In this document: piece after piece, positions 49,123-60,855 of the stretch
Layout: each line of letters opens with the position of its first letter
How positions within the stretch are numbered: the first letter of the stretch is position 1
DNA from: Poseidonibacter lekithochrous
GTDB lineage: Bacteria > Campylobacterota > Campylobacteria > Campylobacterales > Arcobacteraceae
Assembly (NCBI RefSeq): GCF_018861145.1
Contig: NZ_JAHKQT010000030.1
Location: 1-60,984, forward strand
DNA: 60,984 nt
Reading direction: 5' to 3'
Notes under the pieces: model-generated
What the model was told of the DNA's origin: nothing
Databases searched by the model: none
The model's input: the letters and a program-made list of their open reading frames with translations, nothing else
Translations under genes and position numbers: made by a program

Positions 49123-49136
49123 ATCTTTTCCTTAAT

Positions 49137-49175
49137 TATTATTAAAAATATTTTATTTAAATACTTTTAATAATA
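49137..49175 (-). repeat. Inverted repeat ahead of CBS/DUF294 copy 1
   Basis: TATTATTAAAA (49137-49147) and TTTTAATAATA (49165-49175) form an 11-bp perfect stem around a 17-nt loop that can itself fold. It ends 4 nt from the ribosome site AAGGAA (49127-49132). A stronger palindrome is in the same position before copy 2. Confidence 0.55.
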
Positions 49176-49192
49176 CTCAATTTAAGTTAAAT

Positions 49193-49229
49193 AAAAAAGA
49201 TCAAAGAGAATAACTCTTTAATCTTTTTT
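49193..49229 (-). terminator. Terminator after symporter copy 1
   Basis: AAAAAAGAT-c-AAAGAG (49193-49208), loop AATAA, CTCTTT-a-ATCTTTTTT (49214-49229), one mismatch. Both directions end in a T-run. It lies 5 nt past the symporter stop codon. Confidence 0.8.
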
Positions 49230-49234
49230 TAGTA

Positions 49235-53748: not shown

Positions 53749-54381
53749 TTAACTAGTGTAAAAAGTGGTTTTTGCAGGTGTAACATCTTTAAGTTTTAAA
53801 AACATCATAGACGTCATTATTGCATCATTTAATGCATCATGTTTCCCAAGAGTTGGAATATTTAATTCTTTTAATATAGTATCAAATTTCAAATCAATAA
53901 ATTCATATTCACTTGTTTTCTTTTTTGATTTGAAATACATTGATGATACTTCAATACTTTCATTTGGTAATTTTACTCCAATATATTGTTTTGTATATTT
54001 TGAAATCATCGCAATGTCAAATTTAATATAATAACCCACAATTGGTCTTGAACCTATAAAGTCTAGTATTTTTAGAATAGCTTCTTCTGGACTAACTGCA
54101 TTTTCTAAATCTATAGGTCTTATTCTATGAATTTTTATAGATTCGGCACTTATATTTTTAGAGGGTTTTACAAAGATATTAAAAGTTTTTCTCATGATTA
54201 CTTTATTCTCTTTTATATGAACTGCTCCAATTGAAAGTATTTCATCTTTTTTTGGATTTAATCCTGTTGTTTCACAGTCTAAGCATACATATTCATTAGG
54301 AATAGGATCATCAAATAAAAAATCATATTTTTTATCTTTTAATTTTTTTCTATTCCAGTTTTTAAAAAATTTTGCAAACAT
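53749..54381 (-). CDS. DnaQ-like DEDDh 3'-5' exonuclease, copy 2
   Basis: 210 residues. Paralogue of the gene at 46668 with the catalytic set intact: D35-C-E37-TTGLNP, VGYYIKFDIAMISKY and KHDALNDAIMT. The basic N-terminus (NWNRKKLKDKKY) is also conserved. Its start overlaps the CBS/DUF294 stop by one base. The pair has been duplicated as a unit, so selection has kept the two activities together. Confidence 0.9.
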   Translation of the reverse strand: MFAKFFKNWNRKKLKDKKYDFLFDDPIPNEYVCLDCETTGLNPKKDEILSIGAVHIKENKVIMRKTFNIFVKPSKNISAESIKIHRIRPIDLENAVSPEEAILKILDFIGSRPIVGYYIKFDIAMISKYTKQYIGVKLPNESIEVSSMYFKSKKKTSEYEFIDLKFDTILKELNIPTLGKHDALNDAIMTSMMFLKLKDVTPAKTTFYTS

Positions 54382-56198
54382 TATGAAATCTTATCTATTT
54401 TAAAAGAATAGCTAATAAACTTTTTAAAATCATTTACTATTTTAAAAGAATCTTTTAATAAATCTCTTTCTATTTTTCCTAAATGATGAGTATCTATTTC
54501 ATTGTTTATTTTTTTATTTTCAAGTAATTTTTCAAGTTGAGATTTTAATCTTAATGTATTTACAACATCAAATGCCTCTAGTAACTCATCCGCTTTTTCT
54601 TTTTCTAGGATTTTTTTCTGTTCTAAGATTTTAATTCTTTTTACAGTTGTAGTTTCCCTAATTTTTTCCCTTAAAGCTAAAGAACGAATTCCTTGTACAA
54701 TTGGGAATACTGCAGTTTTTTTAATATCAATATAATGAACTTTTGTCATAAAATTTGCAACAGTGCTTGGTGTATCAAAAGTTAAAGTAGCTTTTGCAAA
54801 ATATGCCATAAAGACATCTTTATCATGAAGTTTATCAAATAAATCATCTTTTAAATTTATCAATAATTGCTTATCTCCTGCAACAGCAAAGGAATCAAAG
54901 AATATTGCTAAATCCATATAGTTTTGCATATCAGGTGCTTCAATCCATCTTTTTGTTTCATTTTTGTATTCACTTACGGTTTTACACCAAAATGGATTTG
55001 AAACCATAATATTTCCTTCGCAAGGTGGATAACCGAAGTCTATTAAATGAGCGGTTAGTTTATCCATATATGGACGATATACAGCTACATCTATTCCATC
55101 TTTTACAACAAGTGCATTATCTTGATCAGTTTTTATAATTTGTTCATTTCTTCCTTCACTTCCCATTACTATTAAACATGCATCTTTTTGTAACTCTTTT
55201 GGTACTACTAATTGATATAATTTCTGATAAACTTTTGTATTTAATTGCCCGATTAAATTTGAGATGTGATTTACTTTTACACCTTTTGCTTGTAAACTTT
55301 TGATTATATTTATTAAATCATTACTTGAGGTTTTTAAGTCTTCTATTGTTTTGGCTTTCTTTATTTTTGTATCTACAACATAAGTATTATTAGCAAAATG
55401 TGACAAAATATCAATTTGTTCTACTACTCCTAGCATTTCTCCTTGATTATTTGTTACACCAACTCTTTTGATATTTCTTTTTATTAATATTGTTAGAGCA
55501 TCAAATAAATAATCATCATTAAATACTGTCATTAATGGAAATACAGCAATCTCTTTTACTGGAATATTTAAACTTCTTCCTTCTAACAATACTTTTACTT
55601 TTAGAAGTGAATCTGTAATTATTCCATAACTATCATCTTCTTTTTTTACAATTATAGTTGATGTTTTATATGTCATTGAACTTTCAATAGCATCAATAAG
55701 TTTTGTATCTTCATCTACAATACAAGCTTCATGAATAATAGTATCATCAACTTTTGCAATCATAAAAGAAGATAATTCAGAGGTATATTCTTTATTTTTT
55801 AATGTTTGAATTTTATTTACAAGATTATTTAAAAAGAAATCTTTGAATTTTTCATTTCCTTCAATTAATTTTAAAAAAGTAGCTTTTTCAAGTTCATAAC
55901 AAATTAGGTCTTCATGTACTTTGAATGTATTTTCAGTTTCATTATAAATAAGAGAATTTGCATCAAAAGAATCTTCTTGATGATAATCCATTATAACTTC
56001 ATCCTCTTTATATTCATAAACCGAACCTTTAATTATTATAAAAAAATGATTAGAGATTTTTTCAGGACTAATTAGAACTCTACCTTTTGGATAATATGCT
56101 ATATCCATATGTTTGATACATTTGTTAATTTGATTTTCTGTTAAAACTTCGAAGGGATGAATATTTGAAAGAAAGGCTTCTTGATCTTGTAAGCTCAT
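54381..56198 (-). CDS. cNMP-binding/CBS/DUF294 nucleotidyltransferase-like protein, copy 2
   Basis: 605 residues. Same domain order as copy 1 and the same spacing: M345-GSEGRNEQ with D358-x-D360, in a segment ending DQDNALV. Both start within a similar N-terminal motif (FLSNIHPFEVLTENQINKC; copy 1 has FLRSIHPFEHLNKVQLENF). The cNMP-like and CBS domains are more diverged than the DUF294 part, suggesting different input signals. Ribosome site AAGGAA (56204-56209). A 20-bp palindrome and a terminator lie directly upstream, downstream of symporter copy 3. Confidence 0.88.
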   Translation of the reverse strand: MSLQDQEAFLSNIHPFEVLTENQINKCIKHMDIAYYPKGRVLISPEKISNHFFIIIKGSVYEYKEDEVIMDYHQEDSFDANSLIYNETENTFKVHEDLICYELEKATFLKLIEGNEKFKDFFLNNLVNKIQTLKNKEYTSELSSFMIAKVDDTIIHEACIVDEDTKLIDAIESSMTYKTSTIIVKKEDDSYGIITDSLLKVKVLLEGRSLNIPVKEIAVFPLMTVFNDDYLFDALTILIKRNIKRVGVTNNQGEMLGVVEQIDILSHFANNTYVVDTKIKKAKTIEDLKTSSNDLINIIKSLQAKGVKVNHISNLIGQLNTKVYQKLYQLVVPKELQKDACLIVMGSEGRNEQIIKTDQDNALVVKDGIDVAVYRPYMDKLTAHLIDFGYPPCEGNIMVSNPFWCKTVSEYKNETKRWIEAPDMQNYMDLAIFFDSFAVAGDKQLLINLKDDLFDKLHDKDVFMAYFAKATLTFDTPSTVANFMTKVHYIDIKKTAVFPIVQGIRSLALREKIRETTTVKRIKILEQKKILEKEKADELLEAFDVVNTLRLKSQLEKLLENKKINNEIDTHHLGKIERDLLKDSFKIVNDFKKFISYSFKIDKIS

Positions 56199-56212
56199 TT
56201 AGATTCCTTAAG

Positions 56213-56257
56213 TTAGTATTTTTTTATATTATAATCAATAATATAAAAAAATACTAA
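56213..56257 (-). repeat. 20-bp perfect palindrome ahead of CBS/DUF294 copy 2
   Basis: TTAGTATTTTTTTATATTAT (56213-56232), loop AATCA, and its exact complement (56238-56257). It ends 3 nt from the ribosome site AAGGAA. It overlaps the terminator stem that begins at 56252, so the two hairpins exclude each other. A minus-strand TATAAT (56233-56228) lies in the palindrome and could be a separate promoter. Confidence 0.8.
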
Positions 56258-56286
56258 AAGTATGCCCAAGGACATACTTTTTAGTA
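56245..56286 (-). terminator. Terminator after symporter copy 3
   Basis: On the minus strand TACTAAAAAGTATG, loop TCCTTGGG, CATACTTTTAGTA, then seven T (56251-56245). A 13-bp stem with one bulged base, 7 nt past the stop codon. Its 3' arm and T-run also form one arm of the palindrome at 56213-56257. Confidence 0.88.
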
Positions 56287-56293
56287 AAAGTGA

Positions 56294-58174
56294 CTAGTGA
56301 TCTACAGCTTCACCAGCACCTGAAGGGATTCTAATTTTTTCAACTAGTTCTTGAATGTGAGCTGGAGGCTCAGGAGTCATTCTAGAAACAATTACTGCCA
56401 CAATAAGGTGTAATAATGTACCTATTGTACCAATACCAGTTGGGTGAATTCCTAAGAAGTAATCTTCTGCTTTTCCACCTAAGAATACGAAGTAGATAAT
56501 ATATCCGAATGTAAAGATAAGACCAACTAAGATACCTGCAATAGCACCTTCTTTGTTCATTCTTTTATCAAATACTCCAAGTATAATTGTTGGGAAGAAT
56601 GCTGCTGCTGCTAGACCAAATGCAAACGCAACTACTTGTGCAACAAATCCTGGAGGGTTAATTCCTAAGTAACCGGCTATACAAATAGCAACGATAGCTG
56701 AAATTCTTGCCCACATTAACTCAGTTTTCTCATTTAAAGTTGATTTCCCAGTTTCTTTGTCTTTGAAAATAACTTGACCCATAAGGTCATGTGAAATTGC
56801 TGATGCAATTACAAGTAATAAACCTGCTGCTGTTGATAATGCTGCTGCAAGACCACCCGCTGCAATAAATGCAATTACCCAGTTAGGTAAGTTTGCAATT
56901 TCAGGATTCGCAAGAACCATGATATCTCTATCTACATATAATTCATTTGCAATACCGTTACCTTTTGCTAATTCTTCAGCTGATGCTGGTCCTTTTGCAT
57001 TAGTAACTAATCTCTCACCATGAATTCCTCTGTTTTCTCCATCAAATGAAGGTTGACCTTTAGCACCTTCAAAAGCTTTACCAGTAGCATATTGAATTTT
57101 ACCATCACCATTTCGGTCATTCCATCCTAATAATCCACCATTTTCCCATGTTGTAAACCATTTTCCGTCGTTACCTTCAATTTCACCATTTACAAATGCT
57201 TTATATTCAGTATTTTGTAAGTTTTTAATTAAATTAACTCTTGAGAATGCAGCAACTGATGAAATAGTTGTATACATAATTGCAATAAATAATAAAGCCC
57301 AACCAGCAGATATTCTAGCATCTCTTACAGTTGGAACTGTAAAGAATCTAACAATAACGTGAGGTAATCCTGCTGTTCCTAACATTAATGCTGTTGTAAG
57401 CATAAACATATTCCATAAGTTACCTGGTTGCGTATAATCAGTAAAACCAAGATCAGATATAGATTGGTCAAGTGCATGTAATAGATATGTTCCTTCAGGA
57501 ATTGTTGAAACTCCAGTGTCGAATGCAAACGTAGTTGTTGCAAAAATACCTAATTGAGGTAAGAATGTATCTGTAACTTGTAATGATAAGAAAATTGCAG
57601 GAATCATGTATGCAAAAATCATAACAACATATTGTGCAACTTGTGTATATGTAATACCTTTCATTCCACCTAAAACAGAATAGAAGAATACAATTGCCAT
57701 ACCGATTAATACACCAGTATTTACATCAACTTGTAAGAATCTTGAGAAAACGATTCCAACACCTCTCATTTGTCCCGCAACATAAGTAAACGATACAAAA
57801 ATAACACCAACAACAGCAACAAGTCTTGCAGTGTCAGAATAATATCTGTCACCAACGAAGTCAGGAACTGTAAATTTACCAAATTTTCTTAAATAAGGAG
57901 CTAATAACATAGCAAGTAGAACGTATCCACCAGTCCAACCCATTAAATATGCAGCACCATCAGAACCTTTGAAAGAAATGATACCTGCTAATGAGATAAA
58001 TGAAGCTGCAGACATCCAGTCAGCTGCTGTCGCCATACCATTTGCAACTGGATGAACACCACCACCTGCAACATAGAAATCTTTAGTTGAACCAGCTTTT
58101 GCCCATAAAGCAATACCGATGTAAACTGCGAATGAAATACCTACAAATAGGTAAATTAATGATTGTAATTCCAT
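56294..58174 (-). CDS. Sodium:solute symporter, DUF4212-linked, with hydrophilic insert
   Basis: 626 residues, about 75 longer than copies 1 and 2 and of a different subfamily. Motifs: DFYVAGGGVHPVANGMATAADWMSAASFI, GLPHVIVRFFTVPTVRDARIS and [17 protein letters not shown]. The extra part is a hydrophilic insert (about 325-420) between membrane segments with an EF-hand-like loop D353-RNGDGKI (D353, N355, D357). It follows its DUF4212 partner by 12 nt. Likely an acetate, propionate or pyruvate uptake system. The substrate is not shown by sequence. Confidence 0.92.
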   Translation of the reverse strand: MELQSLIYLFVGISFAVYIGIALWAKAGSTKDFYVAGGGVHPVANGMATAADWMSAASFISLAGIISFKGSDGAAYLMGWTGGYVLLAMLLAPYLRKFGKFTVPDFVGDRYYSDTARLVAVVGVIFVSFTYVAGQMRGVGIVFSRFLQVDVNTGVLIGMAIVFFYSVLGGMKGITYTQVAQYVVMIFAYMIPAIFLSLQVTDTFLPQLGIFATTTFAFDTGVSTIPEGTYLLHALDQSISDLGFTDYTQPGNLWNMFMLTTALMLGTAGLPHVIVRFFTVPTVRDARISAGWALLFIAIMYTTISSVAAFSRVNLIKNLQNTEYKAFVNGEIEGNDGKWFTTWENGGLLGWNDRNGDGKIQYATGKAFEGAKGQPSFDGENRGIHGERLVTNAKGPASAEELAKGNGIANELYVDRDIMVLANPEIANLPNWVIAFIAAGGLAAALSTAAGLLLVIASAISHDLMGQVIFKDKETGKSTLNEKTELMWARISAIVAICIAGYLGINPPGFVAQVVAFAFGLAAAAFFPTIILGVFDKRMNKEGAIAGILVGLIFTFGYIIYFVFLGGKAEDYFLGIHPTGIGTIGTLLHLIVAVIVSRMTPEPPAHIQELVEKIRIPSGAGEAVDH

Positions 58175-58601: not shown

Positions 58602-58631
58602 TAATAGAAGCCTGAAAATAGGCTTTTATTA
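58602..58631 (-). terminator. Terminator-like hairpin at the end of the regulator gene
   Basis: AAGCCT (58608-58613), loop GAAAAT, AGGCTT (58620-58625), extended by A-T and G-U pairs to 12 bp (58602-58631). The regulator stop codon lies in the stem. The minus-strand tail is moderately T-rich. Confidence 0.65.
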
Positions 58632-59291
58632 AACAGAATAATATCTATCTATTTTGTATCCTAATCCTCTAATATTTTTAATAAAGTCTTCTTTTAGTGC
58701 TTTTTTTAATCTTGATATCTCTGCTCTAATTGTTGGATTATCGATATTCTCTCCATCCCATATGTCTATTCTAAATCTTTCAAAGTCTACAATCATATTA
58801 ATATTAAGCGCTAAGATATGAATAATCTCTAATTGTTTTTTTGTAAGATTTTGAGGTTCACCATTAAAATATAGTGTTTGTTTATCTTTAGAATAAGCAT
58901 AATTTTCAGAAAATTTTATATGAGTTGTTTTATTTTGGTCTTTTTTTAATATTTGATTTATCTTGATTCCGAGCTCTTCTAGGTGAAAAGGTTTCTTTAT
59001 ATATTCTCTACAACCTAAGTCATATGCTTTAGTGATATCTTCAATATCAATAAGTGCTGATATGTAAATTGCTGGTATATATATTTTCTTGCTATTAAGT
59101 TCTTCTAGTATCTCAAAGCCATCTTTTGTTGGAACGTTTATATCTAGTATCAATAAATCATAAGATATATCAACATTATCTAAGACTTCTTGCCCATCTG
59201 TAAAACTCTCAACCATATGTCCAATACCTTTTAAGTATTCACAAATGGCATTATTTAACATTAGTTCATCTTCAAGTAGTAATATTTTCAT
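58629..59291 (-). CDS. OmpR-type response regulator
   Basis: 220 residues. Receiver domain with the acidic pair E7-D8, phosphoacceptor D50 and Lys in YIKKPF, then a winged-helix output domain (about 130-218) that ends RAEISRLKKALKEDFIKNIRGLGYKI. Such regulators bind direct repeats about one helical turn apart, which makes it a candidate for the TAGCA-N6-TAGCA sites. It overlaps its kinase by 20 nt and lies next to, and upstream of, the DUF4212-symporter operon. Confidence 0.9.
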   Translation of the reverse strand: MKILLLEDELMLNNAICEYLKGIGHMVESFTDGQEVLDNVDISYDLLILDINVPTKDGFEILEELNSKKIYIPAIYISALIDIEDITKAYDLGCREYIKKPFHLEELGIKINQILKKDQNKTTHIKFSENYAYSKDKQTLYFNGEPQNLTKKQLEIIHILALNINMIVDFERFRIDIWDGENIDNPTIRAEISRLKKALKEDFIKNIRGLGYKIDRYYSV

Positions 59292-60855
59292 TTATTCTAA
59301 ACCTATAAGTAAATTTTGTTTCTTGTTCATTAGATTCTAGTTTTATTATAACTAAATTCTTGTCACAAATTTCTTTCACAATTTTAAGTCCTAAGCCAAA
59401 CCCTCCTCTGTTACTATTCTCCCTATAAAAATCATCAAAAATCTTACTTTGATACTCAATTTTTTTAGATTTTGTAGAAACTGAAAATTCTACTTGATCA
59501 TCATTTGTATAACTTAATTTTATAAAAACAGGAGAATTTGAATAAGAGTATTTAATAGCATTAGATAAGTTGTTATCAATTATTCTTTGAAATTCTGTTA
59601 TATTAAACTTTATATAAATATCTTCTTCTATATTACTTACAAAATGCAGAGAATTTGAAGTAGCAATTTCATGAAAAAAATCTAATCTTTGAGAGATGAT
59701 ACTCGAAAGGTTTAAATATTCTTTTTCATAAATAACTCTATCTTTTTTTATAAGATAAGATAAATCATCATAGATATATTGAATTATTTTTGCACCTGAT
59801 TCAATATGAGTAATATATTTATTATTTGGTATATTCATTTTTAATAAATCAATATTGGTTTGAATTATAGAAAGTGGAGTGTTGATTTCATGTACAGAGT
59901 TTTTTATAAATTTTTTTTGAGATTCAATTAAATTTGTTAATTCTTTAGTTTTTTCATCAACTTTATATTCTAAATTTTTATTTAAGTCTTCTAGCATATG
60001 AGTTTTTAATTTTATATTATTCATTGCATCTGTTGCATAATTTGCGATTACTTTAAATTCACCAAAAATTAATCTATTTTGATTTAACGGCGTATTATTT
60101 TGCTGTGACTCTTTAAAATATTTACCTATTTCTTTTACATCACTTACAATTAATATTGTTGCATTTTTATAAATAAATATTGAATATAAAACTAGCATAA
60201 TAGTTAGAGATGTAATTTGTAAGGTATAATCAGATATTTTTTGGTCATATTCATATTTCTTTTCTTGTACTAGATTATCAATTTTATCTAAATAGACACC
60301 TTTACCAATAGCCCAATTTAATGGTTCATAAGATTTTGAGTAAGATATCTTTTTCACATTTTTTGAAATATCAGGTTTATACCAAGAATATTCTATATAT
60401 CCACCATCTTTTTGTTTAGAAATAGATATAAGTTCTTTAATTACCTTTTTCCCTTTTATATCTGTAAATTCAAGTAAATTCTCTCCAATATTTTCTTTTG
60501 CTACTGGATGATAGATTGATGTACCATCAAAATTATAAATAAATATATATTCATTTAGATCTTTATATTTTCTTATTTCTTGAATAGTAGTTAATATCTC
60601 TTTTTTTATTGCTTTTATATTTTTAGTATTTTTGTATTTGTCATGTGTATACTTAATAAAACTAATCATAGAATTAACATCATTTTTAATAAGTTCTTTT
60701 TGGTTATCTTTATAATCAGTGTTTAGTGTTACAATTTTATCTTGAAGTTCTTCATGGGCATTATTAATTATAATAAATGTAAAAAATGAAATTAATACTA
60801 TTATAAATAAAATACTGTAGACAATTAAGTGATATAAACTTTTTGCTTTAAACAT
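59272..60855 (-). CDS. Cache-domain sensor histidine kinase
   Basis: 527 residues. TM1 (about 8-30), a periplasmic single Cache domain (about 35-205, with YIFIYNFDGTSIYHPV and DGGYIEYSWYKP), TM2 (about 213-232), a linker and coiled coil, then the kinase core with H322 in VHEINTPLSIIQ. N box DNNLSNAIKYS and G box GGFGLGLKIVKEI are complete. Single Cache domains of this type bind small carboxylates in several known receptors, which suits the location. The ligand here is unknown. The stop overlaps the regulator start. Confidence 0.9.
   Translation of the reverse strand: MFKAKSLYHLIVYSILFIIVLISFFTFIIINNAHEELQDKIVTLNTDYKDNQKELIKNDVNSMISFIKYTHDKYKNTKNIKAIKKEILTTIQEIRKYKDLNEYIFIYNFDGTSIYHPVAKENIGENLLEFTDIKGKKVIKELISISKQKDGGYIEYSWYKPDISKNVKKISYSKSYEPLNWAIGKGVYLDKIDNLVQEKKYEYDQKISDYTLQITSLTIMLVLYSIFIYKNATILIVSDVKEIGKYFKESQQNNTPLNQNRLIFGEFKVIANYATDAMNNIKLKTHMLEDLNKNLEYKVDEKTKELTNLIESQKKFIKNSVHEINTPLSIIQTNIDLLKMNIPNNKYITHIESGAKIIQYIYDDLSYLIKKDRVIYEKEYLNLSSIISQRLDFFHEIATSNSLHFVSNIEEDIYIKFNITEFQRIIDNNLSNAIKYSYSNSPVFIKLSYTNDDQVEFSVSTKSKKIEYQSKIFDDFYRENSNRGGFGLGLKIVKEICDKNLVIIKLESNEQETKFTYRFRINENITT

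Follow-up and report, generated by a model that had tools for sequence, protein, structure and literature searches.

A conserved A-U hairpin beside the terminator between a symporter gene and a DUF294 gene in Poseidonibacter and related Arcobacteraceae

Introduction

How two adjoining hairpins in a short intergenic gap relate to each other, and what they do for the gene downstream, is the question raised by a locus of Poseidonibacter lekithochrous. The window analyzed here, positions 1–60,984 of contig NZ_JAHKQT010000030.1, encodes a 626-aa sodium:solute symporter of the SSF family (symporter 3, positions 56294–58174; Pfam PF00474, 8e-52), followed by a 605-aa putative nucleotidyltransferase with cNMP-binding, CBS, DUF294 and DUF294_C domains (DUF294 copy 2, 54381–56198, assigned by ORF and Pfam). 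All genes of this region are on the minus strand. Genes for a response regulator and a histidine kinase (58629–60855) lie upstream of the symporter operon and are candidates for a regulator of the cluster. In Pseudomonas, a putative nucleotidyltransferase of the DUF294 kind (Pflu5625) belongs to the acetate (CrbS/R) regulon (PMC5715377).

Symporter 3 and DUF294 copy 2 are separated by 95 nt (TCACTTTTACTAAAAAGTATGTCCTTGGGCATACTTTTAGTATTTTTTTATATTATTGATTATAATATAAAAAAATACTAACTTAAGGAATCTAA-ATG), in which, on the minus strand, a terminator is followed by a 20-bp A-T hairpin, the sequence AAGGAA and the CBS/DUF294 start. An earlier note on this DNA proposed that only one of the hairpins can form at a time, and read the gap as a terminator/antiterminator switch, a translation gate or a simple promoter with an operator.

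Results

The core of the first hairpin (hairpin 1, minus strand 56281–56256) consists of AAAAGTATGTCC TTG GGCATACTTTT, with 11 pairs, three of them G-C, and a run of seven T residues (T7, 56251–56245) directly after it. A G-C-containing stem with a U-run behind it is what is expected of an intrinsic terminator, and by its sequence hairpin 1 with T7 is a plain one. The second hairpin (hairpin 2, 56213–56257) is a perfect A-U inverted repeat, paired at 20 of 20 positions, with arms at 56257–56238 and 56232–56213 and a loop of 5 nt. Its 5' arm contains the U-run of the terminator, its apex contains TATAAT (minus strand 56233–56228), a possible −10 element of a DUF294 promoter, and the Shine–Dalgarno sequence AAGGAA (56209–56204) begins 3 nt past it. 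In all these points the earlier description of the gap was accurate.

The supposed exclusion of one hairpin by the other did not hold. The cores of hairpins 1 and 2 have only 2 nt in common (56256–56257), and the minimum-energy fold of the gap contains both of them side by side, at −27.1 kcal/mol compared with −11.4 kcal/mol for the terminator only and −17.8 kcal/mol for the palindrome only. The ensemble pair probabilities were 0.74 for hairpin 1 and 1.00 for hairpin 2, and none of 200 shuffled sequences folded equally well (z-score −5.0). Both hairpins were also present together in 40 of 43 folds of related gaps. In nascent RNA, hairpin 1 can be extended to a 15-bp stem by an outer stem, UACUAAA/UUUAGUA, which competes with the palindrome over about 7 nt, and both helices survive this competition. 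The apparent interlocking thus arises because the outer stem of nascent hairpin 1 later yields about 7 nt to hairpin 2.

A switch, in which mutually exclusive hairpins would decide between stopping and reading into DUF294, finds some support in the Poseidonibacter clade, where a short three-way competition exists: UUAGUA can pair with UACUAA on the upstream side of hairpin 1 or, further downstream, within hairpin 2. However, the overlap of the two hairpins is restricted to close relatives; many members (those with d1 of 0 or more) show none, and in them hairpin 2 begins past the terminator's own U-run. Moreover, the 3' arm of hairpin 2 (56232–56213) is transcribed downstream of T7 (56251–56245), after polymerase has cleared the termination point, and hairpin 2 is therefore unable to antiterminate. 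A gate on translation is a weak proposal as well, since AAGGAA is unpaired in the centroid fold, outside hairpin 2, and since in several genera the hairpin lies 70–90 nt from the start codon, with promoter-like sequence between. The switch reading is largely refuted, and we consider it very improbable.

The gaps of relatives, taken from the stop codon of the symporter gene to the start codon of DUF294, were compared next. The close relatives of the window are Poseidonibacter and further members of the Arcobacteraceae. Within this family, the close symporter orthologues found have DUF294 just downstream, so that hairpin 2 could belong to either gene. Almost all relatives keep hairpin 1 as a hairpin, and hairpin 2 is present in 43 of the 52 junctions; of these 43, five are the paralogous junction at DUF294 copy 1. 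In an alignment of 20 members, 94% of the cells were paired, nine pairs showed two-sided changes, and the number of compensatory cells was 32, as compared with 9.1 ± 2.3 in shuffled alignments and no more than 8 in controls with one arm slid. The sequence drifts while the helix is kept: GTG/CAC stands for GTA/TAC in L011, and TACTA/TAGTA, AGAT/GATTT and ATAATTT/AAATTAT are found in L014, L015 and L021, respectively. The helix is longer by 9–12 pairs, around an enlarged loop, in L014 and L018. Gaps that could not be aligned by sequence (L010, L012, L020, L027, L040, L046, L053, L060 and L061) have a long hairpin of their own at the equivalent position. Stems in 16 representatives comprised 14–30 pairs, with a median of about 21. 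The conservation of pairing in relatives, which the earlier note had named as a check, was thus found in the form of compensatory changes. The earlier view of the gap as the seat of a functional RNA structure is upheld, on firmer grounds than the window's letters could give.

The loop of hairpin 2 in L014, L018, L019, L017 and L024 has a conserved motif, ACGCGAAC or GCGCGAA(C), in A-T surroundings, which may be a contact for a protein or an RNA. Upstream of DUF294 in L023 and L055 there is a nested double hairpin, whose inner member is a long stem of A-U pairs with CCGAAC as its loop.

In gaps of the Aliarcobacter type (49–66 nt; L042–L045, L047 and L049), hairpin 1 is kept and hairpin 2 is lost; the U-run is lost too in L042, L044, L045, L047 and L049, while L043 retains T7. 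The Sulfurimonas-type gaps of L133 and L135 have neither hairpin 2 nor a proper U-run and, like the five Aliarcobacter-type gaps without a U-run, resemble plain operons. Outside the family, the second hairpin is absent from L129, L132, L133 and L135, with T5 retained in L132, and is present in L131. As most gaps without hairpin 2 lack a proper U-run too, hairpin 2 mostly accompanies a working terminator. It is also lost where the two genes are fused, and the gaps behind a different upstream symporter (L025, L026, L056 and L057) measure 0–46 nt and contain no hairpins.

An inverted repeat may be conserved as DNA or as RNA. In a set of 16 divergent representatives, which included two from copy-1 junctions, and with G·T and A·C scored equally, G·U pairs outnumbered A·C by 24 to 6 (p 0.0014), and the sense hairpin was more stable than the antisense one in 13 of the 16 (p 0.006); both p-values assume independence, and related genomes are only partly independent. 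A promoter might also account for the retention of the G in ATGTTA of the 5' arm, but G·U pairs elsewhere were biased in the same way. As G·U exceeds A·C and the sense strand folds better, the comparison points to selection on an RNA helix of the strand that reads from symporter to DUF294. A palindromic operator for a protein is disfavored both by this preference for G·U over A·C and by the spacing of the half-sites, which ranges from 7 to 39 nt.

The same data bear on the possibility that hairpin 2 contains a promoter driving DUF294, with the terminator T-run as its T-rich upstream region, an extended −10 element such as TGTTAAAAT or the apical TATAAT, and transcription beginning at the loop or within the 3' arm; the inverted repeat would then be secondary or a repressor operator. 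Campylobacter σ70 promoters have the form gnTAnaAT, no −35 element and a periodic signal upstream (PMC3847290). A promoter inside the 5' arm would be consistent with this form, a matching 5'-arm motif occurs in L007, L008, L013, L060, L061 and others, and the short-gap members offer no space for a promoter elsewhere. Many short-gap members have a promoter-like T-run with TGnTAnnnT in the 5' arm, and some of the sequence conservation may be due to it. The TATAAT to which the earlier note pointed does exist, but TATAAT itself is not conserved in relatives. Furthermore, 5 of 17 anchored members lack the T at the last −10 position; the gnTAnaAT-type motif is present in many, not all, members. We found no literature on Arcobacter transcription starts that maps the symporter 3–DUF294 locus. 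Pairing is kept by compensatory and G·U changes, of a kind that a DNA operator would not favor, and the variable half-site spacing speaks against such an operator as well. Finally, the long-gap members L010, L012, L016, L019, L040 and L052 have a separate promoter-like TATAAT 3' of hairpin 2 and keep the hairpin nevertheless, which argues that hairpin 2 is not merely a leader of the DUF294 message. A promoter within hairpin 2 is the main rival explanation, though an unlikely one in our judgment. A promoter start and a processed RNA end could both fall in the A-rich 3' arm, in which case both readings would apply together.

Covariance models of Rfam did not match the gap (E up to 1 in 55000–58000). 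Searches with a sequence pattern and a covariance model returned a single site per genome, specific to the symporter–DUF294 junction save for one unrelated palindromic pattern match in G011, and a MITE or other dispersed repeat was rejected on these grounds. A chance or generic A-T palindrome, for which the few other long A-T hairpins elsewhere in the genome might be quoted, is refuted by cross-genus conservation with compensation. The likelihood of either is negligible. The gap holds a conserved RNA element, ordinary in kind and apparently not described before.

The junction between symporter 1 and CBS/DUF294 copy 1 (49123–49234, minus strand) shows the same succession of a terminator and a long A-U hairpin as that at copy 2. 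Comparison of the paralogous junctions places the terminator hairpin after symporter 1 at 49193–49229 and the second hairpin, of 21–22 pairs with two G·U pairs and one mismatch, at 49132–49180, where it ends at the AAGGAA of DUF294 copy 1. This layout is common to the close relatives L095, L096 and L102, and to L103 with a different sequence. It is limited to close relatives; many others have gaps of 145–350 nt without the hairpin.

In a background scan of the window's own genome (1.126 of 3.0 Mb, and thus small numbers), a long second hairpin followed the terminator in 5 of the 45 co-directional gaps that have one; the figures were 4 of 185 for gaps without a terminator and 0 of 13 for convergent ones. 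Hairpin 2 of the window scored highest among the 45. The slyD(FKBP)–fabD junction (L168:17562–17723) also has a G-C-rich terminator with a long A-U hairpin directly after it, and this arrangement is kept across the genus and, with compensations, in L193.

Terminators with second hairpins of 20–27 pairs were also seen in two other co-directional junctions, one leading from an FAD oxidoreductase/dadA-like gene to an alanine carrier-like gene (L143:18688–18846) and one from a pentapeptide-repeat gene to a PQQ-dehydrogenase-like gene (L141:12865–12991). The longest hairpin in the sampled genome, a near-perfect A-T hairpin of 24–25 bp, lies in a divergent gap ahead of a small ORF that resembles a lipoprotein gene (L070:4691–4749). 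An intergenic stretch at L149:2600–2800 resembles a structured non-coding RNA, perhaps 4.5S/SRP RNA.

Discussion

The reading that we favor, tentatively and at somewhat less than an even chance, is that hairpin 2 acts on read-through RNA, and that a leaky terminator together with a processing or insulating helix of the RNase III type sets the dosage of DUF294. Hairpin 1 with its U-run would stop most symporter transcripts. A polymerase that reads through would make hairpin 2. This helix, about two turns long, starts at the base of the terminator and uses the U-run for its 5' arm. RNase III would then cut this helix, or the hairpin would otherwise insulate or protect the RNA ends. The cut would part the symporter message from that of DUF294, which would begin within the A-rich 3' arm, shortly ahead of the Shine–Dalgarno sequence, and much transporter and little of the putative regulator would be obtained from adjoining genes. 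We infer the leakiness of the terminator, the processing by RNase III and the effect on dosage.

Processing by RNase III is favored because the stem lengths cluster near two turns. In E. coli, the minimum target of this enzyme is roughly 22 bp, and intergenic and attenuator-linked sites are used (PMC5371410). A double-stranded stem of the length expected of such a site (about 20–22 bp) is present here, the window's own 20-bp stem being borderline, slightly under the usual minimum. Processing of RNAs by RNase III is documented in Campylobacter (PMC8687705).

Alternatively, hairpin 2 may stay uncut and shield read-through or longer DUF294 RNA from 5'–3' decay of the RNase J type, or keep the Shine–Dalgarno region free of other structure. 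In keeping with that, the hairpin ends a few nucleotides before an unpaired Shine–Dalgarno sequence in the window's own genome, in most short-gap relatives and at the copy-1 junction. This does not extend to several genera in which the hairpin is 35–90 nt from the start codon, in some of them with promoter-like sequence between, and a purely protective or spacing role seems to us improbable.

Processing of read-through RNA has a precedent in the rplL–rpoB junction of E. coli, where a partial terminator is followed by an RNase III site. Both junctions would combine a leaky terminator, which is presumed here, with co-directional genes of unequal dosage and a long hairpin in read-through RNA. In contrast to rplL–rpoB, the hairpin described here abuts the terminator, absorbs its U-run and consists of A-U pairs only; the genes and sequences are unrelated, and the processing is predicted. 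The long intergenic double-stranded stem is likewise reminiscent of E. coli RNase III sites such as panE–yajQ and pflA–pflB, which sometimes adjoin promoters or attenuators, although the window's stem is just below their usual length and its cleavage is a prediction (PMC5371410). Classical attenuators and riboswitch expression platforms also place a terminator beside a hairpin with shared nucleotides; here, unlike in those, the hairpins are compatible, the second one is downstream of the terminator, and no conserved ligand-binding core was seen. As for Campylobacter σ70 promoters (PMC3847290), the resemblance lies in the T-run and TGnTAnnnT motif of the 5' arm, but the motif is incomplete in several members and does not explain the pairing.

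Possibly, though this is more doubtful than not, the hairpin represents a recurrent junction element of Arcobacteraceae, in which the U-run of a terminator doubles as the 5' strand of a covarying hairpin, about 20 bp long, that sets how much neighboring co-directional genes yield relative to each other; with the CGCGAAC-type loop of some genera, it could bind a factor and be regulated. The proposed sites of such an element are the two symporter–DUF294 junctions, slyD–fabD, and the junction from the dadA-like to the alanine carrier-like gene.

Taken together, these results describe a structured intergenic RNA, absent from Rfam, whose pairing is conserved across genera of Arcobacteraceae while its sequence is not. 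If leaky termination and processing set the dosage, the junction would offer a clean test of how the outputs of adjoining genes are separated in these bacteria.
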